From positions 2,287,501-2,351,500 of the forward strand of contig NZ_CP065511.1 in the NCBI RefSeq assembly GCF_022811925.1: 64,000 bases of DNA, written 5' to 3'. Each line of letters starts with the position of its first letter. Position 1 is the first letter of the stretch. This document shows positions 14,015 to 43,490 of the stretch, piece after piece. The translations under genes and the position numbers were made by a program. The notes under the pieces are model-generated. The model had not been told where the DNA came from and ran no database searches. It saw only the letters and a program-made list of their open reading frames with translations. This stretch comes from Cytobacillus oceanisediminis (GTDB taxonomy: Bacteria > Bacillota > Bacilli > Bacillales > Cytobacillaceae).

Positions 14015-14122
14015 TTCTTATCCAGAGAGGTGGAGGGACTGGCCCTGCGAAGCCTCAGCAACCCCTGATTATGTCAGGAAGGTGCTAATTCCAACAGAGT
14101 TGACACTCTGGGAGATAAGAGG
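14015..14122 (+). promoter_or_regulatory. SAM-I (S-box) riboswitch aptamer
   Basis: It contains the invariant S-box core: P1 strand TTCTTATC, then CAGAGAGGTGGAGGGA, CCTGCGAAGCCTCAGCAACC, GGTGCTAATTCCA, and the closing GATAAGA that pairs with P1. The 3' strand TAAGAGGTC can alternatively pair with GGCCTCTTA at 14140, giving the usual antiterminator/terminator switch. High SAM should stop transcription before the methyltransferase gene. Confidence 0.95.
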
Positions 14123-20953: not shown

Positions 20954-21943
20954 TTAAAATACCCTGTCGCCATTAAAGATCGAATTCTTTACAATAACAT
21001 AATCAACATGACGGATGGCATCCAGCTTGTTGCCGCCTGCGTAAGATATGGAGGACTGGAGATCCTGCTCCATTTCTTTCAGCGTATCTGCTAATGATCC
21101 TTTGTGCTCGACTAAAATTCTCTTGCCTTCAACATTTTTCTTTTCGCCTTTTTGAAATTCAGAGGCTGAGCCAAAGTATTCTTTATAAAGCTTTCCATCT
21201 TTCTCATTCTCAATGGTTTTTCCAGGTGACTCCTCATGTCCTGCAAACAAGGAACCAATCATCACCATTGTTGCACCAAATCGAATCGATTTGGCAATGT
21301 CACCATGGGTGCGAAGACCTCCATCTGCTATGATCGGTTTGCTTGCTGCCTTTGCACACCAGCGAAGTGCAGCTAATTGCCAGCCGCCCGTTCCAAATCC
21401 TGTCTTAATTTTTGTGATGCAAACCTTACCAGGTCCAATGCCAACTTTTGTGGCATCAGCACCAGCATTCTCTAATTCTCTGACTGCTTCCGGGGTTCCG
21501 ACATTGCCAGCAATCACAAAGCTTTGAGGAAGGTGTTTCTTTATATGCTGAATCATTTGGATAACAGCATTGGAATGGCCATGAGCTATATCAATGGTAA
21601 TGTATTCCGGTGCCAGCTTTTCATCAGCTATTTGCTGTATAAACTCATACTCGCTTTCTTTGACGCCAACACTGATCGAAGAGTATAATCCACGTGCCTT
21701 CATATCGTTCATAAAAGAAATTCGCTTCTCTGGTTCGAATCGATGCATGATATAAAAATACCCGTTCTCTGCTAAGTATATGGCAATTTTCTCATCTACA
21801 ATCGTCTGCATGTTGGCAGGCACAACAGGCAGTTTAAACGCACGATCCCCCAGGAATACCGTTGTATCACATTCAGATCGGCTATTGACGATACTTTTTG
21901 CGGGAATTAATTGAATATCTTCATAATCGAATACATTTTCCAT
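20954..21943 (-). CDS. guaC: GMP reductase
   Basis: A 329-residue TIM-barrel enzyme converting GMP to IMP with NADPH. It starts [16 protein letters not shown]. The active-site cysteine is in [20 protein letters not shown], the phosphate-binding loop is [12 protein letters not shown], and [16 protein letters not shown] is typical of the Gram-positive GuaC type. There is no CBS domain, which separates it from IMP dehydrogenase. ATG 21943 follows TAGGAGG; the longer reading has no ribosome binding site. A leader of about 170 bases with a hairpin and a terminator-like structure precedes it (22044-22110), and it diverges from the Zur-box transporter operon. Confidence 0.93.
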
Positions 21944-22273: not shown

Positions 22274-22294
22274 TAATCGTAATAATTACGATTT
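22274..22294 (+). promoter_or_regulatory. Zur box 1
   Basis: An inverted repeat with arms AATCGTAAT and ATTACGATT around one central base. It matches the Bacillus Zur consensus (7-1-7 arms TCGTAAT/ATTACGA) at all but one flanking position. It points to zinc-dependent repression of the transporter operon. Confidence 0.85.
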
Positions 22295-22382
22295 AAAAAT
22301 GCTTCCAGCCTTCCCAGCTAAGCCGGAAAATTTAATATCGAGATATACATATTAAAGAAATAAAGAATTAGTTATATTTTTT

Positions 22383-22403
22383 AAATCGTAATGATTTTGA
22401 TTT
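22383..22403 (+). promoter_or_regulatory. Zur box 2
   Basis: The left arm AAATCGTAAT is perfect; the right arm ATTTTGATTT has two mismatches to the Zur consensus. It lies 96 bases before the transporter start, nearer the likely promoter than box 1. Confidence 0.7.
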
Positions 22404-22498
22404 GTGAAGCGGGGTGAAAAAATTTCTTTTAATGCAATATAAATGCACAGTCCACTGCGAGGCAGTGAGAAAAATAAAATCAAGGGGGAAGGTCATCA

Positions 22499-24037
22499 TT
22501 GAATAAGAAATTTTACATTAGCTTATTAATAGTTTTATTGACGCTGCTTACAGCTTGCTCAGCAGAAAACGCCAATTCATCTGCAGAAGGCAATAGTGGA
22601 GAAAAAAAGAAAGAGGTAACGTTCCTCTCCAATTTTCCAAGTGAAACACTTGATCCGCATCTGAATTATACAGCTGTCAGGGCAGGGATAACTGAGACAC
22701 TTGTGAGAGTCAATCAGGACCAGGAGCTTGAAGGCTGGCTTGCGGAAAGCTGGGATACAAGTGATGGGGGACAGACATGGACCTTTCAAATTAGAAAGAA
22801 TGTCACTTTTCAAAATGGTAAGAAAGTAGATGCAGAAGCTGTAAAAGCTTCTTTAGAACGAAACATACAAGTGAGCGAGGCTATGAAAACGGCATTGAAA
22901 ATCAAATCAATGGAAGCGGACGGACAGACCTTGGCCATCACAACCGAGCAGAAATTGCCGCAATTTCCATCCGAGCTTGTCCATCCCAACACGGCAATAG
23001 TAGATAGCACACTTGAGAATATGGAACAAGAACCAATAGGAACAGGTCCTTTTAAAGTCGTATCATTTGAGCCGAACAGCAAGCTGGATCTGGAGAGATA
23101 TGGAGAGTATTGGGACGGGGAGGTTAAGCTTGACCGGGCAACGATGACATTCAACGAGGATGCCAATGCACGGACAACAGCACTTCAGTCAGGAGATGCA
23201 GATATTGTTTACCGTCCGGCTATAGAAAGCCTTGAGGTTCTCAAAAGTGATCAATCTATCAAAACGAATGTGGTTTCCAGTCTGCGCACGCATCTTCTCA
23301 TGTACAACTCTGGTAAAGAAACCTTTAAGGATCCTAATGTAAGAAAAGCTTTTGATGCTTTGATTGACCGTCAAGCGGTTGCGAATGAGATAATGGCGGG
23401 GCAAGCGACAGTGGCCCAAGGACCTTTCCTTGCAGACTCTCCATTCTCGCCAGATTATGAAAAAAAGCAATTTAGCATTGAAAAGGCCAAAAAATATCTA
23501 GAAGAAGCAGGATATGAGAAAAAAGAAGGAAAGATGGTAAAGAACGGCAAGCAGCTTACTCTTAAACTCATGACCTATTCCTATCGTCCTGAATTGCCGT
23601 TAATCTCCCAAGTGCTGCAATCCAATGCAAAAGAATTGGGAATCGCGATTGAAATTCAGCAGGTTGAAAATATAGACGAGTATTTGGCAGAGAAGACAGA
23701 CTGGGATCTAGCCACCTACAGTCTTATTACTGCGCCAAGAGGAGATGCGAGCTATTTCCTTAATTCAGCGTATATGGCAGGAGGAGCAATCAATCCAGGG
23801 CAAATTCATAATGATGAGCTTGCAAAGCTTATAGAAGAGTTGAACCAAACATCTGATAAAGAAAGACGGAATGAAGTATCAAAAGAAGCAATCCAAATCA
23901 TTGATCAGGAAAAACTGCATTCCTTTCTCGTTCATCCAAATAATTTTGTTGCTTATAAGGATCATGTCCTGAATTGGCAGACCAGTAAAAGTGAGTACTA
24001 CGCTTTAACCAAGGATTTAGATGTGAGGACAAAATGA
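22499..24037 (+). CDS. ABC transporter substrate-binding lipoprotein (NikA/CntA-like)
   Basis: A 512-residue family 5 (SBP_bac_5) binding protein. A lipoprotein signal ends in LTAC with Cys20 as the lipidated residue. The body matches nickel/opine-metallophore-type receptors: ETLDPHLNYTAVRAGITETL, LEGWLAESWDTSDGGQTWTF, IGTGPFKV and FKDPNVRKAFDALIDR. The start is TTG 22499 with GGGGGAAGG upstream. It opens a six-gene operon behind two Zur boxes, so a zinc or zinc-metallophore ligand is more likely than peptides. CntA is the closest model in mind, but ligand identity is inferred. The stop overlaps the next ATG (ATGA). Confidence 0.85.
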   Translation: MNKKFYISLLIVLLTLLTACSAENANSSAEGNSGEKKKEVTFLSNFPSETLDPHLNYTAVRAGITETLVRVNQDQELEGWLAESWDTSDGGQTWTFQIRKNVTFQNGKKVDAEAVKASLERNIQVSEAMKTALKIKSMEADGQTLAITTEQKLPQFPSELVHPNTAIVDSTLENMEQEPIGTGPFKVVSFEPNSKLDLERYGEYWDGEVKLDRATMTFNEDANARTTALQSGDADIVYRPAIESLEVLKSDQSIKTNVVSSLRTHLLMYNSGKETFKDPNVRKAFDALIDRQAVANEIMAGQATVAQGPFLADSPFSPDYEKKQFSIEKAKKYLEEAGYEKKEGKMVKNGKQLTLKLMTYSYRPELPLISQVLQSNAKELGIAIEIQQVENIDEYLAEKTDWDLATYSLITAPRGDASYFLNSAYMAGGAINPGQIHNDELAKLIEELNQTSDKERRNEVSKEAIQIIDQEKLHSFLVHPNNFVAYKDHVLNWQTSKSEYYALTKDLDVRTK

Positions 24038-24975
24038 AACAGACTGGCAAAAGACTGTTTGAGCTTGTCATTTTCCTGTTTGTATTATCCTTTATCAGTT
24101 TTGTCTTCATGAAAGCAGCTCCGGGGGATCCTGTAAGATACATGCTGAATATAGATGATGTTTCCATTACAGATGACCGGATTGAAGAGCTTAGAAATGA
24201 GCTGGGCTTTAATGACCCCATTTACGTTCAGTATTGGAATTGGCTGATCCGGTTCTTTCAGTTTGATCTGGGGGAATCTTATATGACAAAACAGCCGGTA
24301 CTGAATGAATTGATGAATAAAGTTCCTGACACACTTGCGTTAACCTTTTCGTCGATGGCGGTCATGATGCTGATCGCTGCACCGATTGGAACGCTAGCTG
24401 CACTCTATAAGAATAAATGGATTGACCATCTCAGCAGGATTTTTGCTTTAATAGGTGCTTCAGTCCCCAGCTTCTGGCTGGGATTGCTTTTCATGCAGCT
24501 GTTTTCAGTTAAATTGGGAATTCTTCCGGCTATGGGTAAGGGTACTTTTCTTCATTTGCTGATGCCTTCCTTAACATTGGGCATTGCGATGGCTGCTGTT
24601 TATGTACGGCTGTTGAGGTCCAGTCTGCTGGAAAGTCTCGGACAGGACTTTATCAGGTCAGCGAAGGCACGGGGGCTTTCGCAAGCGAGGATTTTTTTCT
24701 TCCATGCTTTTCGGCACTGCCTTACACCGGTTATTACCATTTTTGGGGTAAGTCTTGGGAGTCTGCTGGGAGGAACAGTCATTATCGAAGTTCTTTTTGC
24801 ATACCCGGGGGTTGGCAAGCTGGTTGTAGAAGCAATCGTAAGGAGAGATTATCCTGTCATCCAGGGATATATTCTTTTTATGGGACTTTTTGTTGTCATG
24901 ATCAATCTGCTGGTTGATTTTTCGTATCGATACCTGAATCCGGAAATCCGATTGAGGGGCGGTGACAGGCGATGA
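24034..24975 (+). CDS. ABC transporter permease (NikB/CntB-like)
   Basis: A 313-residue inner-membrane permease of the DppB/NikB type with six membrane segments. The N-terminal part reads RLFELVIFLFVLSFISFVFMKAAPGDPVRYML, where APGDP is the family hallmark. The EAA-loop contacting the ATPase is FIRSAKARGLSQARIFFFHAFR (residues about 206-227). It overlaps its neighbours by ATGA on both sides. Pairs with the permease at 24972. Confidence 0.88.
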   Translation: MKQTGKRLFELVIFLFVLSFISFVFMKAAPGDPVRYMLNIDDVSITDDRIEELRNELGFNDPIYVQYWNWLIRFFQFDLGESYMTKQPVLNELMNKVPDTLALTFSSMAVMMLIAAPIGTLAALYKNKWIDHLSRIFALIGASVPSFWLGLLFMQLFSVKLGILPAMGKGTFLHLLMPSLTLGIAMAAVYVRLLRSSLLESLGQDFIRSAKARGLSQARIFFFHAFRHCLTPVITIFGVSLGSLLGGTVIIEVLFAYPGVGKLVVEAIVRRDYPVIQGYILFMGLFVVMINLLVDFSYRYLNPEIRLRGGDRR

Positions 24976-25793
24976 CCAAACGATTGAGAATCACAAAGCC
25001 AGGGATGTTATTGATGGTTCCTCTTCTTATTGTCATCATTATTGCACCTATTATCGCTCCTTTTGATCCGAATCAGGTCAATATGGGTGATCGGTTAAAA
25101 CCTATGAGTATAGACCATTTTTTTGGGACTGATCATTTAGGGAGAGATGTTTTTTCCCGGATACTGGCGGGTGCTCAAACAACAGTCGGCATGAGTTTTC
25201 TGGTCCTGGCCATTTCACTGCTTATAGGTGTTCCCATCGGGCTGGTATCTGGATTTGCCGGAGGAAAAATAGACCGTCTACTCATGAGGGTGGTCGATGC
25301 ATTTATGGCATTCCCCGATTATATTGCCGCAATTATTTTGAGCGGGCTGCTGGGACCGGGTATGTTCAATTTGATCTTTGCCATTGTGATGGTGAAATGG
25401 GTCGGATATGCCCGATTAGCCAGGAGCACTGTGCTGACGGAAAAGCAAAAGGATTATATATTAATAGCTAAAGTGAATGGCGTTGGCTCTATGAATATAT
25501 TGCGGAAGCATATGATCCCTCATGTGTTAGGGAATGTGATGGTACTCGCGACCCTGGATGCCGGAAAAATCATCTTAATGATTGCTTCTCTTTCCTATAT
25601 AGGGCTAGGGGCTCAGCCTCCGACTCCTGAGTGGGGGGCGATGCTGAATGAAGCGAAGGCATTCTTTTATAATGCTCCGCAATTAATGCTCATTCCAGGT
25701 TTATCAATCATGCTGATTGTTCTAATCTTTAATTTAGCTGGTGATTATTTGAGAGATCATTATGATGTGAAAAATCAGAATGGAGGCAGATGA
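24972..25793 (+). CDS. ABC transporter permease (NikC/CntC-like)
   Basis: A 273-residue second permease of the DppC/NikC type. The N-terminus has LLMVPLLIVIIIAPIIAPFDPNQ, followed by the family motif FGTDHLGRDVFSRILAGAQ. The EAA-loop is KDYILIAKVNGVGSMNILRKHMIPH. Five to six membrane spans are seen. The ATG overlaps the previous stop and its own stop overlaps the next start, so the operon is tightly coupled. Confidence 0.88.
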   Translation: MTKRLRITKPGMLLMVPLLIVIIIAPIIAPFDPNQVNMGDRLKPMSIDHFFGTDHLGRDVFSRILAGAQTTVGMSFLVLAISLLIGVPIGLVSGFAGGKIDRLLMRVVDAFMAFPDYIAAIILSGLLGPGMFNLIFAIVMVKWVGYARLARSTVLTEKQKDYILIAKVNGVGSMNILRKHMIPHVLGNVMVLATLDAGKIILMIASLSYIGLGAQPPTPEWGAMLNEAKAFFYNAPQLMLIPGLSIMLIVLIFNLAGDYLRDHYDVKNQNGGR

Positions 25794-26590
25794 TGTCGGT
25801 TCTACGGATTTCTAATCTAGCCATAAAACATGGGGAAGAATATTTGGTGCGAAATATTGGTCTCTCTATCCAAGAAGGAGATTGGCTGGCGCTTATCGGT
25901 GAGAGCGGAAGCGGGAAAAGCATAACAGCTTCTTCTATTGGGGGCCTTCTCCCGCGAGACCTCAGCATTTCATCAGGCAGCATCCATATTGGGGACGTAA
26001 ATCTCGCTGACTTAAAGGAAAAAGAACGGCGGACCTATCGCGGGAAAGTCATTTCCTATATATTTCAAGATTATCAGGGAGCTTTCACTCCATTTATGAC
26101 CATAGGTGCTCAATTCGATGAAATGCTGAAAACGCATACGAAGGATTCCAAACAACAAAGAAAAGTAAGGGTCCTGGAATCATTAAGAAACGTAAATCTT
26201 CCTGAAGAAAGAGTGTATAAAAGCTACCCATTTCAGCTGAGCGGAGGGCAGCTGCAAAGGGCTGCCATCGCCATGGCGACGATATTGAAGCCGAAATTGC
26301 TTATTGCAGATGAACCGACCACCGCTCTTGACAGCATTACCGCAGCCCATGTTCTTCAGCTGCTTGCTGATCTGCAAAAGCAAACAAACTGCGCAGTTTT
26401 ATTTATTACACATGATTTGCGGCATGTAAGGAAATTCGCCAATAAGATGGCCGTCATGCGAAAGGGCCGGATTGTGGAATCGGGGAAAAAAACGGAGGTA
26501 CTCAAGCATCCGCAGCATGTCTATACGAAAGAATTGATAGCTGCAGTACTTTCTTTGAAGACGACGAAAGAACGATTGGCAACCATATAA
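25790..26590 (+). CDS. ABC transporter ATPase (NikD/CntD-like)
   Basis: A 266-residue ATPase. Walker A GESGSGKS is near residue 38, the Q-loop lies in YIFQDYQGAFTPF, the signature is LSGGQLQRAAIA near 149, Walker B LLIADEPTTALD near 170 and the switch His in FITHDLRH. It is the first of two ATPases that would form a heterodimer, as in Opp/Nik systems. ATG 25790 overlaps the permease stop; GGAGGCAG precedes it. Confidence 0.88.
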   Translation: MMSVLRISNLAIKHGEEYLVRNIGLSIQEGDWLALIGESGSGKSITASSIGGLLPRDLSISSGSIHIGDVNLADLKEKERRTYRGKVISYIFQDYQGAFTPFMTIGAQFDEMLKTHTKDSKQQRKVRVLESLRNVNLPEERVYKSYPFQLSGGQLQRAAIAMATILKPKLLIADEPTTALDSITAAHVLQLLADLQKQTNCAVLFITHDLRHVRKFANKMAVMRKGRIVESGKKTEVLKHPQHVYTKELIAAVLSLKTTKERLATI

Positions 26591-26605
26591 ATTAGGGGGG
26601 ATTAA

Positions 26606-27391
26606 ATGAGTATAGTTGGACCAGACGTGCTGGTGGCGAAGAATATAATAAAGCAGTATTCGTCTGGACAGAAAGCGGTCGATCAAGTATCTTTTATTTT
26701 AAAAAAAGACGAATGTCTGGGCATTGTCGGGGAGAGCGGGAGCGGGAAAAGCACATTGGCCAGGTGTCTCCTTGCATTGGAAAAAGTGGATCAGGGTGAA
26801 ATCTGGTTTAAGGATAAGACCTTGCATACGGCTAGTAAGGAGGATCTTCGCTCAATTAGAAGGGGAATCCAGGCTGTCTTTCAAAATCCTGCAGCCTCAC
26901 TAAATCCGAAACTGAGAATCATCGATTCGCTGATGGAGCCATTGGATTTTCAAAAGAGTATCCAGCCGTCGTTTTTAAAAGGAATTCGGCATCATCGTGA
27001 AAAGGCAGCAGAGCATTTGCTTGAGATGGTAAAGCTTCCATCCAAGTATCTTACCATTTATCCCCATGAATTAAGCGGGGGCGAAAAGCAGAGGGTTACG
27101 ATCGCCCGGGCGATAAGCATTGAGCCTTCGCTTATCATTCTTGATGAACCCACAGCGAGCCTTGATGTTTCAATTCAAGCTAAAATCTTGGATTTATTAA
27201 AAGCTCTTCAGCAGCAAATAGGCGTTTCCTATCTATTCATTTCGCATGATTTGGCTGCAGTGAACTTCATGAGCGACCGGATCATGGTGATGAAGCAAGG
27301 GAAAATAGTAGATGAATTCAGCAATTATGATTTATTTTCAGAGAAAAGGGATTCTTATACAAAGGAATTGCTTAATGTATTTGAAGGGTAA
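26606..27391 (+). CDS. ABC transporter ATPase (NikE/CntF-like)
   Basis: A 261-residue ATPase. Walker A GESGSGKST is near residue 44, the Q-loop lies in AVFQNPAASLNPKLRI, the signature is LSGGEKQRVTIA near 151, Walker B LIILDEPTASLDVS near 169, and SHDLAAV carries the switch His. It pairs with the ATPase upstream. ATG 26606 follows AGGGGGG. There are 16 bases after the previous gene and 11 before the MATE gene. Confidence 0.88.
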   Translation: MSIVGPDVLVAKNIIKQYSSGQKAVDQVSFILKKDECLGIVGESGSGKSTLARCLLALEKVDQGEIWFKDKTLHTASKEDLRSIRRGIQAVFQNPAASLNPKLRIIDSLMEPLDFQKSIQPSFLKGIRHHREKAAEHLLEMVKLPSKYLTIYPHELSGGEKQRVTIARAISIEPSLIILDEPTASLDVSIQAKILDLLKALQQQIGVSYLFISHDLAAVNFMSDRIMVMKQGKIVDEFSNYDLFSEKRDSYTKELLNVFEG

Positions 27392-27402
27392 GGGGGATTA
27401 AC

Positions 27403-28737
27403 ATGAATCATAAGGCATATCTCGCTTTGGCTATTCCACTCATTTTATCAACCATTACCACGCCATTATTGGGAGCCGTTGACACAGCGGTGGTGGGCCA
27501 GATGGAGGATCCTTCATACCTTGCTGCAGTTGCAGTAGGAACGATTATTTTTAATACAATGTATTGGCTGTTTGGATTTTTGCGGGTCAGCACATCCGGA
27601 TTTGCCGCCCAGGCTCATGGAGCAAAGGACGCGGAAGGAGGAATGCTGGCAATCGCCCGCCCATTCCTTATCGCTATTATAGCAGGAACGGTTTTGATTG
27701 CCCTCCAGTGGCCGATTATGCAGGTGTTCCTGCCGGTGTTAAGCCCGGATCAGCATGTACAGTCACTCGCGGATGATTATTTGCAGATTCGGATTTGGGG
27801 TGCGCCGTTTGCTCTCCTCAACTATGTCATTCTTGGCTGGCTGATGGGAATGTCTATGATCAAAATCTCTCTTTTTTTGCAAGTGTTGATGAATCTTATG
27901 AACATTGTGCTGGATATCCTCTTTGTATTTGGTTTTTCCTGGGGTGTTTCCGGTGTGGCAGCAGCGACTTTACTGTCAGAAATAACGGCTTTTACCATCG
28001 GATTGGTGATTGTTTGGAAAGCTTCTCCATTCAAAGGGACATTTCCATCCTTTCATAACGTGATTGACCCGTCGTCCTTCAAGAAAATGATGAAGGTGAA
28101 CAGGGATTTGTTTATCCGGACGGTTTGTTTGTTAACCGTTTTTAATTTATTTACTTCCAAAGGCGCTTCCTTTGGAACGGAAACCTTGGCTGCAAATGCC
28201 ATCCTGATCCAAATCCATTACGTCATGGCATATTTTTATGACGGCTTTGCCAATGCTTCCAGTATCATGACAGGAAAGGCAATTGGGTCAATGGATAAAT
28301 CTCTGTATCAGCAGACACTCAAGTTATCCATGCAGTGGGCAATATATTCCTCTATTATAATAGCTAGTGTCTACTATTTGCTTAATGATTACATCCTCCG
28401 GTTATTTACTACTATTCCAAGGATTATTGAAACGGCTCAAAGCTATGAAATTTGGTTAATCGTGTTTCCCCTTGCCGCAAGTTTTGGAATTGTTCTCTTT
28501 GGAGTTTTCACCGGTGCAACCGAAGCCGCGCCCATTCGTGATTCCATGCTTCTTGCCTTATCCATCTTTTTAATTGTTTATTTTCTGGTGGTGCCTGTCG
28601 CCGGAAACCATGGATTATGGCTTTCCTTCATTATTTTTAGTGCAGGGCGTTCTGTGTTTTTAGCTATATTTGTACCACGGTTAACAAGAAAATTGTTTCC
28701 AGGTAAAATGCCTGCCTCCGATTGCGTTATCACGTAA
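27403..28737 (+). CDS. MATE family efflux transporter (DinF-like)
   Basis: A 444-residue MATE exporter of the DinF branch with about 12 membrane spans. The N-terminus reads AIPLILSTITTPLLGAVDTAVVGQM, where the DTAVVG pattern is typical, and the second half repeats the fold. It is last in the operon, 11 bases after the ATPase and with its own AGGGGG site, so it shares the Zur boxes. Staphylopine systems export the metallophore through an MFS protein (CntE); a MATE in this slot would be an unusual counterpart. No metallophore synthase is nearby. Its last codons form the left arm of the terminator. Confidence 0.82.
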   Translation: MNHKAYLALAIPLILSTITTPLLGAVDTAVVGQMEDPSYLAAVAVGTIIFNTMYWLFGFLRVSTSGFAAQAHGAKDAEGGMLAIARPFLIAIIAGTVLIALQWPIMQVFLPVLSPDQHVQSLADDYLQIRIWGAPFALLNYVILGWLMGMSMIKISLFLQVLMNLMNIVLDILFVFGFSWGVSGVAAATLLSEITAFTIGLVIVWKASPFKGTFPSFHNVIDPSSFKKMMKVNRDLFIRTVCLLTVFNLFTSKGASFGTETLAANAILIQIHYVMAYFYDGFANASSIMTGKAIGSMDKSLYQQTLKLSMQWAIYSSIIIASVYYLLNDYILRLFTTIPRIIETAQSYEIWLIVFPLAASFGIVLFGVFTGATEAAPIRDSMLLALSIFLIVYFLVVPVAGNHGLWLSFIIFSAGRSVFLAIFVPRLTRKLFPGKMPASDCVIT

Positions 28738-28760
28738 AAGGGGGGCAGGCATTTTTTGCA
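28706..28760 (+). terminator. Terminator overlapping the end of the MATE gene
   Basis: AAATGCCTGCC (inside the final codons of the MATE gene) pairs with GGCAGGCATTT (28744-28754), followed by TTT. It ends the Zur-box operon. Confidence 0.8.
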
Positions 28761-30722: not shown

Positions 30723-32072
30723 ATGAGTCTATTAAAAAGTCCAGAATTGCTTGTTGAACACATTATTAATCATTCATTTGATGAAATTTTTGTGACAGAT
30801 GCATCAGGAAATGTTCTGTTTGCAAGTTCTAGTTTTAAAAATTTATTTGGAATTCAAGCGGAGGAAATAATTAATCAGAATGTTTTTGTTTTAGAAGAAA
30901 AAGGCATCCTTTCTCCTTCGGTTACCGGAAAAGTTTTGAAAACAAAAAACAGAGAAACGATTATTCAAGAAACAAGGCTTGGCCGAAAGCTAGTAGTCTC
31001 AGCTTATCCAGTTGTCGGCCCAAATGGTGAGATGCATGGCGCCCTAAGTTTCTCAAGAGATATTACTGAGCTCGATTATTTAAAAAGAACGAATGAACAA
31101 GTTGCAAAAACGATTCAACTCTATGAGAAAGAGCTGGAAATAATGAGAAATAAACAAAATCATTTAAGACCAACAAAAAATAAAAAAATGGAACAGGTCT
31201 ATAACATTGTAAATAAGGTATCTACACTTGATGTCACTGTCCTTTTGGAAGGAGAATCGGGAGTAGGGAAAAATCATTTTGCCCAGATTATACATCAGAC
31301 TTCAGATAGAAAAGAGCATCCCTTTATTGAAGTGAATTGCGGAGCCATACCAGAATCTTTAATAGAATCAGAGTTATTTGGCTATGAAGAAGGGGCATTT
31401 ACCGGAGCCAAAAAAGGCGGGAGAAAGGGCTACTTCGAATCAGCGGCCAAGGGCACGATTTTTCTTGATGAAATCGCAGAATTGCCAATAAATTTGCAAG
31501 TAAAGCTGTTGTCAGTTCTCCAAAATAGATCCATTCAGCGTGTAGGAGGCAACTCAAAAATAAATCTGGATTGCAGAATTATTTGTGCCTCTAATCAGGA
31601 CCTTCAAAGTTTGATTAAGCAAAAAAAGTTTCGAGAAGATTTATATTACAGAATTAATGTTATAAAAGTCTTCATACCTCCTTTAAGGGAAAGGCGTGAG
31701 GACATTGCTCCATTGGTTTATGATTTGGCTGAGGAATTCAATGAAAAGTACCGAATGAATAAACAGTTCACTCCACAAATGATGACGTGGATTTGCAGAC
31801 AAGAGTGGCCTGGTAACATCCGAGAGCTTAGAAATTTCATAGAAAGGACCTTAATTACTTCGAATAATAACCATATTGATTTAGACCAAATTGGTATTGA
31901 TCTGCCATTGGGAGGAGAACTGACATTAGATCAGTACATGGAAATGATCGAAGAGGAACTAATTGTACGTATGTACAAGAAGTTTCCCAGCAGTGTAAAG
32001 TTGGCAAAAAGATTAGGGATTAGTCAATCAAAGGCAAATAGAAAAATAAATAAATATGTGAAAAAAGCCTAG
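30723..32072 (+). CDS. PAS-domain sigma-54-dependent activator
   Basis: A 449-residue enhancer-binding protein. A PAS sensor spans residues about 10-120 (DEIFVTDASGNVLFASSSF, closing with GALSFSRDITE). The AAA+ domain has Walker A GESGVGKN near 179 (Asn replaces the usual Ser/Thr), the sigma-54 contact loop GAFTGA near 222 and Walker B GTIFLDEIAEL. A C-terminal helix-turn-helix reads SSVKLAKRLGISQSKANRKI. It should activate the ureohydrolase-transporter unit behind the sigma-54 promoter at 32117. The signal sensed by PAS is unknown. ATG 30723 follows AGGGGAT. Confidence 0.9.
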   Translation: MSLLKSPELLVEHIINHSFDEIFVTDASGNVLFASSSFKNLFGIQAEEIINQNVFVLEEKGILSPSVTGKVLKTKNRETIIQETRLGRKLVVSAYPVVGPNGEMHGALSFSRDITELDYLKRTNEQVAKTIQLYEKELEIMRNKQNHLRPTKNKKMEQVYNIVNKVSTLDVTVLLEGESGVGKNHFAQIIHQTSDRKEHPFIEVNCGAIPESLIESELFGYEEGAFTGAKKGGRKGYFESAAKGTIFLDEIAELPINLQVKLLSVLQNRSIQRVGGNSKINLDCRIICASNQDLQSLIKQKKFREDLYYRINVIKVFIPPLRERREDIAPLVYDLAEEFNEKYRMNKQFTPQMMTWICRQEWPGNIRELRNFIERTLITSNNNHIDLDQIGIDLPLGGELTLDQYMEMIEEELIVRMYKKFPSSVKLAKRLGISQSKANRKINKYVKKA

Positions 32073-32086
32073 TCACGAATGACTAG
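32069..32086. promoter_or_regulatory. Candidate enhancer (UAS) of the activator
   Basis: A perfect palindrome CTAGTCA-CGAA-TGACTAG that overlaps the activator's stop codon and lies about 60 bases upstream of the expected start of transcription. It shares the TAGTCA half-site with the repeat at 30676-30712. Confidence 0.6.
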
Positions 32087-32116
32087 ATATTTTTCTGAAA
32101 ACGGTCTTCCTGGCGT

Positions 32117-32133
32117 TGGCATGAAAGTTGCAT
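32117..32133 (+). promoter_or_regulatory. Sigma-54 (-24/-12) promoter
   Basis: TGGCAT, five bases, TTGCAT. The spacing and both GG and GC elements match the sigma-54 consensus TGGCAC-N5-TTGCA. It drives the ureohydrolase gene 46 bases downstream. Confidence 0.85.
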
Positions 32134-32178
32134 TACTAATAACTAGGCAGTATATCTTTATTCCTAGGAGGATCGCTT

Positions 32179-33168
32179 ATGTCTAATCCATATGAAAAAC
32201 AAGTTTTAAACCTTCCATTCACAGGTATTTGCTCTTTCGGAAAATATCCAATCTGTACCAACCTTGATGATCTATCTGCAGATGTTGCTGTGATTGGTGT
32301 CCCTTATGATATGGGGACTCAATGGAAATCAGGTACAAGAATGGGCCCGCGGGGAATTAGGGAAGGCTCTACGTTATATAGTTTTGGGCTAGAAGGGGCA
32401 TATGATATCGAAAAGGACATTATGTATTTGGGACCAGATTGCAAAGTTGTCGATTGCGGAGATGTAGATATGGTTCATGGTGATTTGGAACAATGCTTCG
32501 ATAACGTCGAAAAATCGATTCGGAAAATAGTTTCTAAAGGGACTATGCCGGTTGTCTTAGGCGGTGACCACTCTATAAGCATTCCTGTAGGCAGAGCATT
32601 GGACTCACTTGGCCCCGTCCACATAATTCATATTGATGCGCACATGGACTGGGCAGATCACAGATCAGGGCAAAGATATGGGCATGGAAGTTCACTTCGG
32701 AGATTAGCGGAAATGGATCACGTCGATAAAATTTTTCAGTTAGGGATCCGTGGTATTAGCAGCAGCAAGAAAGAAGATGTTGATGCAGCAAGAGAATATG
32801 GAAGTGTGATCCTTTCACCAAGACAGATGCGCAAAATGGGCATTGACTCGATAATAGACTTAATTCCAAAAGGTGAAAATTATTATGTGACCATTGATAT
32901 AGATGGTCTTGATCCATCACTTGCACCAGGGACAGGCACACCATCGCCTGGAGGTTTATTTTACGATGAAGTGAATGAGCTAATAGAGGGAGTTGCGAAA
33001 AGAGGAAATGTAATCGGTTTTGATTTAGTAGAGGTATCCCCGCCTTACGACCCTACAGGGATAACTAGTCAAGTAGGTGCAAGAATAGTTCTTGATTTTA
33101 TTAGTTTTATCTTAAAAGAGAGAGAAAAAAGCGGCAAGTCAGCAGTACAGTTAAGCAGGACCAATTAA
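32179..33168 (+). CDS. Ureohydrolase (agmatinase / guanidino-acid hydrolase family)
   Basis: A 329-residue arginase-fold enzyme that splits a guanidino compound into urea and an amine. The binuclear manganese (or nickel) site is intact: GGDHS near residue 132, IDAHMDWAD near 154, and DIDGLDPS near 237. Family members act on agmatine, guanidinobutyrate, guanidinopropionate or guanidine; the sequence alone does not decide. Sigma-54 control and a partner transporter suggest use of an external nitrogen source rather than polyamine synthesis. ATG 32179 follows TAGGAGG. Confidence 0.85.
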   Translation: MSNPYEKQVLNLPFTGICSFGKYPICTNLDDLSADVAVIGVPYDMGTQWKSGTRMGPRGIREGSTLYSFGLEGAYDIEKDIMYLGPDCKVVDCGDVDMVHGDLEQCFDNVEKSIRKIVSKGTMPVVLGGDHSISIPVGRALDSLGPVHIIHIDAHMDWADHRSGQRYGHGSSLRRLAEMDHVDKIFQLGIRGISSSKKEDVDAAREYGSVILSPRQMRKMGIDSIIDLIPKGENYYVTIDIDGLDPSLAPGTGTPSPGGLFYDEVNELIEGVAKRGNVIGFDLVEVSPPYDPTGITSQVGARIVLDFISFILKEREKSGKSAVQLSRTN

Positions 33169-33181
33169 TTTTGGGATAGAA

Positions 33182-33201
33182 GGAGGAGGTTTACCTCCTC
33201 C
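33182..33201 (+). other. Intercistronic hairpin
   Basis: GGAGGAGGT pairs perfectly with ACCTCCTCC around TT, between the ureohydrolase and transporter genes. No T-run follows, so it is not a terminator. It may protect the upstream message or adjust the ratio of the two proteins. Confidence 0.6.
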
Positions 33202-33228
33202 GGAAAAATACTCTCGGAGGTGACTTGC

Positions 33229-34716
33229 TTGAGTGAAAATACTGTCATGGTTGATAGGAAAAAGGTATATGAGGACATTGAATGTGCCCAACACATAGAT
33301 ATTCCAGACCGTGATGACCCTAGCTATGTAGATTATATTACACTTGATAAGAAACAGTTTAAAATTGGTTTATTGAAGTCTGTTTTCTTTACATCAATCG
33401 CTTTATTAGTTTTTTTTGTCCCATTAAGTATTAATGGAAAAACGGATATTTTATTCGGCTATATTTATAATTATTTTGTTAATCTATTGGGAAATGCAGG
33501 ATTATGGATTGTAACAATATTAATGGCTGTTAATACATTAGGTAGTTTTTACGGTAAATTTGTCGCTAAAAAGAATTCCTTTTTTTATCATTACTATGGT
33601 CATGACACAGTTTTCCATCCATTTTTATATCTGTTAGGAGCTATTTATACTGTTATCTACACTTTACACATAAATTTTGAGCAGTTTACAGGACCTGAAT
33701 GGATAGTAGGCAGCGGTACAGGAGGAACCGTAATTCCAAGTATCGTTTTAGGGGTTCTGTGGATCATTATTGTTGGAGCATTTTTCATGCCTTTTCTGCT
33801 CAATTATGGAGGGATAGATTTTGTAGGATCTATCCTTGAACCAATTATGCGGCCGATTTTCAAGGTGCCGGGTAAGAGTGCAATTGATGCAATTGCTTCA
33901 TTTGTGACTTCCTCATCCATGGCGGTAATCATCACAAGTAAATTATTTAAAATGAATGTCTACACTAAAAAAGAAGCGGCCATAATTGCAACCTCATTCA
34001 GTGCTGTGAGCGTAGGGTTTGCTTTACTTGTTATTAATACAGCTGGTTTGGGCGACCATTTCCTAAAAATCTACCTATCATCACTTTTAATTACTTTTAT
34101 CATTTCATTCTTTATGGTACGGATCCCACCTCTATCTAAAAAAATGTCTGTTTATTCAAGCGGTAAAATACAAACGGATATTGATAGAATGAGTGAAGCT
34201 AGATTCGAACGGGGAATTGTCAAGAGGGGTATTGAGCGTGCAGCAAAACGGGCCTACACTGCTCAAAGTATTTATAAAGAAATATTATCTAGTTTAAAAG
34301 ATGGGTTCCAGGTTATTCCTAAAGTCTTAACATTATTAGCTGCTGCGGGAATTACTGGTTTAATTATTGCTGAATATACGCCCATCTTTCATTGGATTGG
34401 ACAGATTTTTGTACCGCTATTAAATATATTGGCTGTACCCAATGCACAGGAAATTGCACCATCTATCCCTGTAGGATTTGCTGAGATGTTTCTTCCAGTC
34501 TTGCTTATTGCCGATCAAGTAGATGTAATAGAAATTGGGGCAAGATATTTCATAACAGTTCTCTCGATGGTACAGATCATTTTCTTATCTGAAACCGTAG
34601 TGGTCATGCTTGCTACTAAACTGCCAATTAGATTTTGGGAACTTGTTGTATGTTTCGTTCAGCGTACATTAATTGCAATTCCGATAGTTGCAATATTCAT
34701 GCATATATTGTTTTAA
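33229..34716 (+). CDS. YjiH family membrane transporter (nucleoside-recognition/Gate domain)
   Basis: A 495-residue membrane protein with about ten spans and two Gate (nucleoside-recognition) domains, as in the YjiH family. After a 45-residue hydrophilic head come LLKSVFFTSIALLVFFVPL, FFMPFLLNYGGIDFVGSILEP and IDAIASFVTSSSMAVIITS; the second half repeats this with PSIPVGFAEMFLPVLL. The transported substrate of the family is unknown. Being co-transcribed with a ureohydrolase, it may import the guanidino substrate or export a product. I start it at TTG 33229, eight bases after GGAGG; GTG 33220 overlaps that site. Confidence 0.82.
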   Translation: MSENTVMVDRKKVYEDIECAQHIDIPDRDDPSYVDYITLDKKQFKIGLLKSVFFTSIALLVFFVPLSINGKTDILFGYIYNYFVNLLGNAGLWIVTILMAVNTLGSFYGKFVAKKNSFFYHYYGHDTVFHPFLYLLGAIYTVIYTLHINFEQFTGPEWIVGSGTGGTVIPSIVLGVLWIIIVGAFFMPFLLNYGGIDFVGSILEPIMRPIFKVPGKSAIDAIASFVTSSSMAVIITSKLFKMNVYTKKEAAIIATSFSAVSVGFALLVINTAGLGDHFLKIYLSSLLITFIISFFMVRIPPLSKKMSVYSSGKIQTDIDRMSEARFERGIVKRGIERAAKRAYTAQSIYKEILSSLKDGFQVIPKVLTLLAAAGITGLIIAEYTPIFHWIGQIFVPLLNILAVPNAQEIAPSIPVGFAEMFLPVLLIADQVDVIEIGARYFITVLSMVQIIFLSETVVVMLATKLPIRFWELVVCFVQRTLIAIPIVAIFMHILF

Positions 34717-42710: not shown

Positions 42711-42975
42711 AAAAAAACCCGCCCCTAAATAGGGACGAGTCTGTGCTCGCGTTACCACCCTTATTCCAAAAGTTTCTTAAAAAGAGACAATCCGGCTCTC
42801 AGTCAACGTACTGTCATACGTGTTCCATGTAACGGTGGAAATCCGTCAAAGCTTACTTCATTTCAGCTTTACATCTCGGAGATGATCTTCAGATAAAATC
42901 TGTTCATCGGTTTCCACCCAACTCCGACTCTCTGCAGAACAGGTTTTTATCTTACTCTTTCCCGTCATAGACTTT
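42711..42975 (-). promoter_or_regulatory. Isoleucine T-box leader of brnQ
   Basis: On the minus strand: stem I with AGTA and a GAAG-ATC specifier region (ATC at 42894-42896), the T-box AAGGGTGGTAACGCGAG (42747-42763), and a terminator with a seven-T tail (42711-42740). ATC as specifier means uncharged isoleucyl-tRNA turns the gene on. Confidence 0.9.
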
Positions 42976-42988
42976 AATATTTAAGACT

Positions 42989-43197: not shown

Positions 43198-43490
43198 TAA
43201 TAAATTTTGGAAAATAAAAAATTGATGACGAGAAGAGTAAGTTAAGTGCCCTGATCCCAAGAGAGTCGGCATATGGTGCAAGCCGATGTTCAGAACTTAA
43301 CCGAAAATCATCTCCGAGATGCAATGCTGAACTTTTTTTCAGTAAGTATTGCCGGGTGGTCCCCCGTTACTAAGGAACACGTATGATTGTACGTTGATTG
43401 AGTGCCGTTATGTGGATCTTTCTATCCGCAAACGGAACTAGGGTGGTATCGCGAGCAAACTCGTCCCTATTATAGGGGCGGGTTTTTTTA
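43198..43490 (+). promoter_or_regulatory. Isoleucine T-box leader of ilvBNC
   Basis: Stem I has AGTA and GAAA-ATC specifier sequence (ATC at 43307-43309), a distal loop GGTGCAA, the T-box AGGGTGGTATCGCGAGC (43441-43457) and a terminator with seven T (to 43490). The segments CATCTCCGAGATG and ACTCGTCCCTAT are shared with the brnQ leader, so the two are probably duplicates. Confidence 0.92.

Follow-up and report, generated by a model that had tools for sequence, protein, structure and literature searches.

Zur boxes, an Opp5A/NikA-type importer and a MATE gene in one operon of Cytobacillus oceanisediminis, with no known metallophore synthase found in the genome

We analysed a stretch of 64,000 nucleotides from Cytobacillus oceanisediminis (assembly GCF_022811925.1, contig NZ_CP065511.1, positions 2,287,501 to 2,351,500; hereafter the window), in which an operon for an ABC importer and a MATE-family transporter lies behind two putative Zur boxes. 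The host genome comprises 5.58 Mb in two contigs, with a completeness estimate of 100%. A reading of this DNA made from its letters alone (the sequence-only reading) had described two Zur boxes before a tightly overlapping operon for a receptor, two permeases, two ATPases and a MATE protein. All six genes are present as intact open reading frames, which run in one direction between a divergent GMP reductase gene (20954-21943) and an intrinsic terminator. In window coordinates, the features are:

22277..22291, no strand assigned: Zur box 1, perfect palindrome TCGTAATAATTACGA; 14/14 specified bases; the genome has 3 perfect sites, this one included; conserved before related operons
22386..22400, no strand assigned: Zur box 2, imperfect (2 mismatches); 98 bp upstream of the receptor start; weak on its own
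22499..24037, + strand: substrate-binding lipoprotein (receptor), Opp5A/NikA family; TTG start, lipobox-like LLTAC; NF045468 749.6 bits (cut-off 600); PF00496; nearest solved structures 3t66 and SaNikA
24034..24975, + strand: ABC permease, Opp2B/NikB type; NF045470 453.8 bits (cut-off 350)
24972..25793, + strand: ABC permease, Opp2C/NikC type; NF045474 359 bits (cut-off 300)
25790..26590, + strand: ABC ATPase, CntD/NikD/DppD-like; PF00005; best NCBIfam matches CntD, CntF and NikD, each below cut-off
26606..27391, + strand: ABC ATPase, DppF/NikE-like; PF00005; NCBIfam matches shown are below cut-off
27403..28737, + strand: MATE-family transporter, DinF-like; TIGR00797 252.8 bits (cut-off 147.4); PF01554; DinF model PRK10367 308.8 bits, below its cut-off of 409
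28703..28759, + strand: intrinsic terminator, overlapping the MATE gene end; -31.5 kcal/mol, z -6.66, equal stability in 0/200 shuffles

Overlaps of 4 bases join the receptor, both permeases and the first ATPase, so that 'tightly overlapping' holds for the first four genes but not for the last two, which follow after gaps of 15 bases (second ATPase) and 11 bases (MATE). The terminator was not listed by a simple scan that admits loops of 3-8 only. Megablast against plasmid records gave no match to the operon. The counts for relatives given below refer to the best 80 of 274 receptor loci, taken from named genomes. The closest receptor among the named loci is again from C. oceanisediminis, with 90% identity (own-genome records perhaps excluded). 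One close relative, L099, carries the record title Pseudomonas sp. ISL-84 and has a receptor ~88% identical to the Bacillales receptor of the window; its label is probably wrong. The GMP reductase gene (guaC) neighbours the operon in the window, L097 and L098, and other genes do so in L100, L101, L104, L105 and L110. Because the flanking genes differ among relatives, what is shared is the set of six genes. We rejected guaC as a functional partner, as it is found in the vicinity of only 5/80 loci.

The motif used for all scans, which we took to be that of Zur, was afterwards found before the znuA-zinT and rpsN2-rpmE2-like genes of the own genome. These are the places of the other two perfect genome sites, one before a ZnuA-ZinT gene (assigned by Pfam) and one before rpsN2 and rpmE2 genes recognized by eye. 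Genes of both kinds are named among the Zur targets of B. subtilis (PMC6103462). Sites with one mismatch were found before a CobW-like GTPase gene and a second ZnuA; three more were within or next to unrelated genes. The window holds 8 matches with up to 3 mismatches, a number reached by 4/100 shuffles (shuffle mean 3.1). The cross-species comparison covered 400 bp upstream of the receptor gene (in the six synthase loci, upstream of cntL) and allowed up to 2 mismatches. A Zur site was present in 57/80 related loci, compared with 0/80 for the reversed motif and 18/520 for other genes, and 42/80 loci carry at least two sites when 3 mismatches are allowed. Three Fur-family proteins, candidates for Zur, are encoded in the own genome. 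Taken together, the perfect first box and its recurrence in relatives strongly support Zur control of the operon, as the sequence-only reading had proposed.

The receptor passes the Opp5A/NikA model given above but reaches only 156.8 bits with the CntA model NF047575 (cut-off 800). With the peptide-binder models it scored 98.5 (DppA, cut-off 1005), 79.8 (OppA PRK15104, 947) and 108.2 bits (Opp4A, 650). By these profiles it is an Opp5A/NikA-type protein and not a CntA, which sharpens the earlier label 'NikA/Cnt-like'. A peptide importer was rejected, since the scores lie far under the DppA, OppA and Opp4A cut-offs. In a fold search with the predicted receptor model (pLDDT 87), 3t66 came first and SaNikA structures took ranks 2 and 3, with CntA and peptide binders lower. 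Three structures in the list are metal-histidine complexes by title: 4xkr [SaNikA with Ni-(L-His)(2-methyl-thiazolidine dicarboxylate)], 4ofl [YntA with Ni(L-His)2] and 4oeu [NikZ with Ni(L-His)]. CntA in the same list carries staphylopine, again by title. The ligand of the window receptor may be a histidine-like chelate, a foreign zincophore or a product of an unrecognized kind.

The names of these models and structures raise the question whether the operon encodes a nickel (or cobalt) importer that came under Zur control by happenstance, as was first proposed for Cnt/Opp1 of S. aureus. The NCBIfam equivalogs are named nickel transporter, the nearest solved structures are named nickel-binding, and Cnt itself was initially taken for a Ni/Co importer (PMC5666155). 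A Zur site in most relatives speaks for zinc instead. In 14/80 loci, the neighbourhood includes a CobW-like gene, a type known to be under Zur control, and no match to the urease alpha gene was found in the own genome (other nickel enzymes were not searched). Paralogous NikA-like operons in the same family, with receptors 34-37% identical to that of the window (L092, L093 and L094), lack a Zur site upstream of the receptor gene even when 2 mismatches are allowed. We consider a nickel importer improbable. Near two of these paralogs (L092 and L094), a cob(I)alamin adenosyltransferase gene was recognized by eye.

In the relatives, the importer is combined with different modules. A MATE gene follows the ATPases in 43/80 loci, within 25 bp in 32/43; two loci without it, L117 and L169, end before the MATE place. 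CntL-, CntM- and EamA-like genes stand directly before the receptor in six loci (L103, L107, L108, L111, L112 and L114), none of which has the MATE gene (p 0.008 given 43/80, in a simple draw that ignores kinship). These genes were assigned by sequence clustering, with which Pfam agrees for L103 (CntL, CntM and EamA) and L107 (CntM). We left L150 out of this count; it has genes from the same two sequence clusters ~7 kb after the receptor, and its CntL-like protein scores 23.6 bits against a nicotianamine synthase (NAS) cut-off of 27.1.

A NAS-like gene is present in 8/80 loci. Seven of them also have MATE (L102, L146, L148, L163, L165, L168 and L173): in L173 the NAS gene precedes the receptor, and in the other six it comes right behind MATE; the eighth, L164, has no MATE and lay outside the PF03059 genome search. 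The genomes of all seven pass PF03059 (74-104 bits, cut-off 27.1), and all but that of L148 are without an opine-dehydrogenase match. The earlier placing of a MATE protein in the exporter position thus gains support from MATE and NAS in the same operon neighbourhood. A search with a NAS alignment gave matches in 40/397 genomes of the order, and eight of these contexts were opened. L238, L239 and L240, together with L242, hold NAS, receptor and MATE (L239 without adjacent ATPases); L241 is a broken remnant; L244 and L245 hold CntL, CntM and EamA with the importer, and L243 holds them without it. From the contexts compared, one importer type appears to be joined to either of two synthase-exporter modules, to MATE alone or to neither.

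The NAS-like gene beside importer and MATE, with no adjacent opine dehydrogenase, in L102, L146, L148, L163, L165, L168, L173, L238, L239 and L240 is a candidate for a new zincophore pathway in Bacillales. L243 (5677-8706) is a mirror image of the window: CntL, CntM and EamA genes with a perfect Zur box, and no importer in 16.5 kb. In L091 (genome G130) the receptor and MATE frames are both broken, with an EamA gene recognized by eye just upstream; this system seems to be decaying.

NAS and opine dehydrogenase were searched for in 50 genomes, namely the own genome, the 42 MATE genomes, most of which are drafts, and 7 others. In the own genome, no opine dehydrogenase (PF10100) was found over the cut-off of 25 bits (best 11.9), and neither PF03059 nor the NAS alignment gave a match. 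The lack of synthesis genes, which had been claimed for the neighbourhood, holds for the whole genome as far as these models detect cntL/cntM-like genes. Export of a metallophore made elsewhere in the genome, one of the options in the sequence-only reading, found no support as far as the known NAS and opine enzymes are concerned. Neither was found in the closest relatives, L097, L098, L099, L100 and L104. Among the 42 MATE genomes, 12 have NAS over the cut-off, 11 have an opine-dehydrogenase match (one a fragment) and 25 gave no match to either.

The window MATE gene is conserved. Compared with L097, L098, L099 and L104, dN/dS was 0.13-0.14 for MATE, 0.09-0.11 for the receptor and 0.05-0.07 for the first permease. 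These values indicate purifying selection, under which the MATE protein of this synthase-free clade is probably still working. As no synthase was found in these relatives either, selection probably maintains MATE for a task that involves no NAS or opine product. One could argue that the operon has merely picked up a common drug or stress pump with no link to the importer: its family is DinF-like, many loci do without it, and the receptor and MATE trees disagree. Such a bystander would hardly be expected at the same place, close behind the last ATPase, in more than half of the loci, nor with a NAS gene beside the operon in seven MATE loci and further genomes. We regard a bystander pump as quite unlikely.

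A more serious alternative is that the operon scavenges: its synthase would have been lost, opine- or nicotianamine-like zincophores of neighbours would be imported, and MATE would be a leftover or have another task. Several kinships fit this proposal. A receptor 69% identical to that of the window stands beside opine synthase genes in L103 and shares with it the stretch RTHLLMYN around position 265. The window receptor belongs to a starred 21-row clade that holds all six opine-linked receptors of the 80 and mixes synthase-bearing with synthase-free loci; L135 and L142, which have neither MATE nor NAS, are placed among MATE+NAS rows. There is also a precedent in Staphylococcus metallophore 'cheaters', which keep uptake lipoproteins without biosynthesis (PMC12709192). 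The exporter is what scavenging, as also suggested in the sequence-only reading, leaves unexplained: a pure pirate needs none, yet MATE is unbroken and shows purifying selection when the window is compared with four relatives that lack a detected synthase, and it is kept in the 25 MATE genomes with neither enzyme detected. Scavenging is in our view the chief rival to the proposal below, but rather unlikely. The MATE protein of the window, by contrast with its receptor, falls in a 19-row set (weak support, 81) that includes 6/7 NAS-adjacent MATEs and 12 rows without NAS, the window among them. Residue His265 of the receptor was considered as a marker of MATE or NAS loci and rejected. It is H in 45/45 MATE or NAS rows and in 1/6 opine-linked rows, but also in the further opine-linked receptors L244 and L245, which brings the opine-linked count to 3/8; no analysis placed position 265 in the binding site.

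We propose that under low zinc Zur leaves the operon and the Opp5A/NikA-type importer and the MATE exporter are made together. The lipoprotein would bind the zinc complex of a small amino-acid-like ligand, the permeases and ATPases would import the complex, and MATE would export ligand of that kind. In some relatives, this ligand may be a nicotianamine-like product of the neighbouring NAS. In the own genome, where no NAS or opine enzyme was found, it would most likely come either from general metabolism, as histidine or some comparable chelator, or from an unrecognized enzyme. That the operon encodes a zinc-starvation importer we hold to be very probable. For the whole chain, with MATE exporting a ligand from outside the known NAS and opine pathways, we see the chances as even. 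A more specific version, a zincophore cycle that needs no dedicated synthase, is put forward only tentatively: MATE would release a common metabolite (histidine, or a chelator derived from it or from cysteine), and the importer would return it with zinc.

Several observations weigh against the proposal. A promoter scan gave 16 matches against 15.0 by chance, no excess. At up to 2 mismatches, the genome holds 26 matches to the Zur motif and 54 to the reversed motif, with no excess over this control, so that box 2 alone proves nothing. The 23 loci without a Zur site include a 7-row receptor clade (5 Paenibacillus and 2 others) that also lacks MATE. The curated family name of the receptor says nickel, and the fold does not decide the ligand, because peptide binders are also in the fold list. 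L152, L157 and L174 have an opine dehydrogenase and no NAS match, which makes PF03059 a weak detector of CntL and means that a very divergent NAS could escape. MATE is not essential to the importer, since 31/74 loci without CntL/CntM directly upstream are also without MATE (the two cut-off loci included). The distances of receptor and MATE correlate at 0.52 (reached in 0/1000 permutations), those of receptor and permease at 0.95, and a distant branch holds 3/44 MATE rows. As MATE distances track those of the receptor only loosely, the gene seems to be a replaceable exporter module that may have joined the operon on several occasions.

A further candidate for a hidden ligand enzyme came from another Zur-linked locus. 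In L032:3629-5807 (own genome C1:3145128-3147306), a perfect Zur box is followed by rpsN2 and rpmE2 genes recognized by eye, a 124-aa protein that Pfam does not match and an FAD/NAD(P)-binding protein of 388 aa, which weakly matches Lys/Orn monooxygenase. The flavoprotein (L032:3629-4795) was found in 12/20 receptor genomes (2 of the 12 copies broken) versus 19/131 others, where G077 and G134, which have only the 34-37% paralogs, were placed among the 131. It was not supported as the ligand enzyme, as the MATE genomes G145, G009 and G033 gave no match. Elsewhere in the window, a regulator judged by eye to resemble a sigma-54 activator, an arginase-family protein and a Gate-domain protein lie in a row (30723-34716). 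Two divergent T-box leaders are at 42728-42977 (- strand) and 43216-43471 (+ strand), and a SAM riboswitch is at 14015-14121 (+ strand).

In many Bacillales, a transporter family named for nickel appears, judging by its neighbours and Zur boxes, to import a chelate during zinc starvation. It occurs in at least three versions: accompanied by opine synthase and EamA, by NAS and MATE, or by MATE only. In the tentative version of the proposal, the second would be a further zincophore pathway in Bacillales, one free of opine dehydrogenase. The third poses the question what a conserved exporter carries when no known metallophore enzyme is present; the identity of the carrier and its maker become testable.

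One of the closest known systems is that of S. aureus NikA (Opp5A), paired with Opp2BCDF; the window receptor and permeases pass the cut-offs for Opp5A, Opp2B and Opp2C. Unlike that system, the operon of the window has Zur boxes and a MATE gene, with zinc presumably as its metal, and its genome gave no urease alpha match. The staphylopine Cnt system of S. aureus (CntKLM, CntE and CntABCDF) shares with the window zinc-responsive control with Zur, an Opp/NikA-type chelate importer and a dedicated exporter (PMC5666155). It differs in that the window receptor is far under the CntA cut-off, MATE replaces the MFS exporter and no synthase was found in the genome.

Staphylopine-type importers and EamA, MFS and fusobacterial MATE exporters are already in print (PMC7438024; PMC5666155). 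In fusobacteria, where the importer is a different one, MATE (MatE) had been recognized as a third kind of zincophore exporter (Morey and Kehl-Fie 2020, PMC7438024). These clusters resemble the window in their MATE as predicted zincophore exporter but have CntM and a FecCD-type importer, whereas the window has an Opp-type importer and no CntM (PMC7438024). A literature search over titles and abstract starts, with subscription journals mostly outside it, returned no report of a Zur-controlled Opp5A-MATE operon or of a Bacillales NAS-MATE locus.

The opine-like EamA clusters use the same importer family, with 60-69% receptor identity and a Zur site (up to 2 mismatches) before cntL in 4/6; unlike the window, they carry CntL, CntM and EamA, and no MATE (6/6). 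The NAS-MATE loci of Peribacillus, Bacillus canaveralius and Paenibacillus (the seven named above) share with the window the ABC importer, MATE and a Zur site (up to 2 mismatches, 7/7), and L238, L240 and L239 (without adjacent ATPases) belong with them; the closest MATE is ~66% identical to that of the window. They carry NAS with no adjacent opine dehydrogenase, whereas no NAS was found in the genome of the window. The published mapping was based on CntM and, as its authors state, misses zincophores made without it (PMC7438024). The NAS-MATE loci are candidates to fill this gap.

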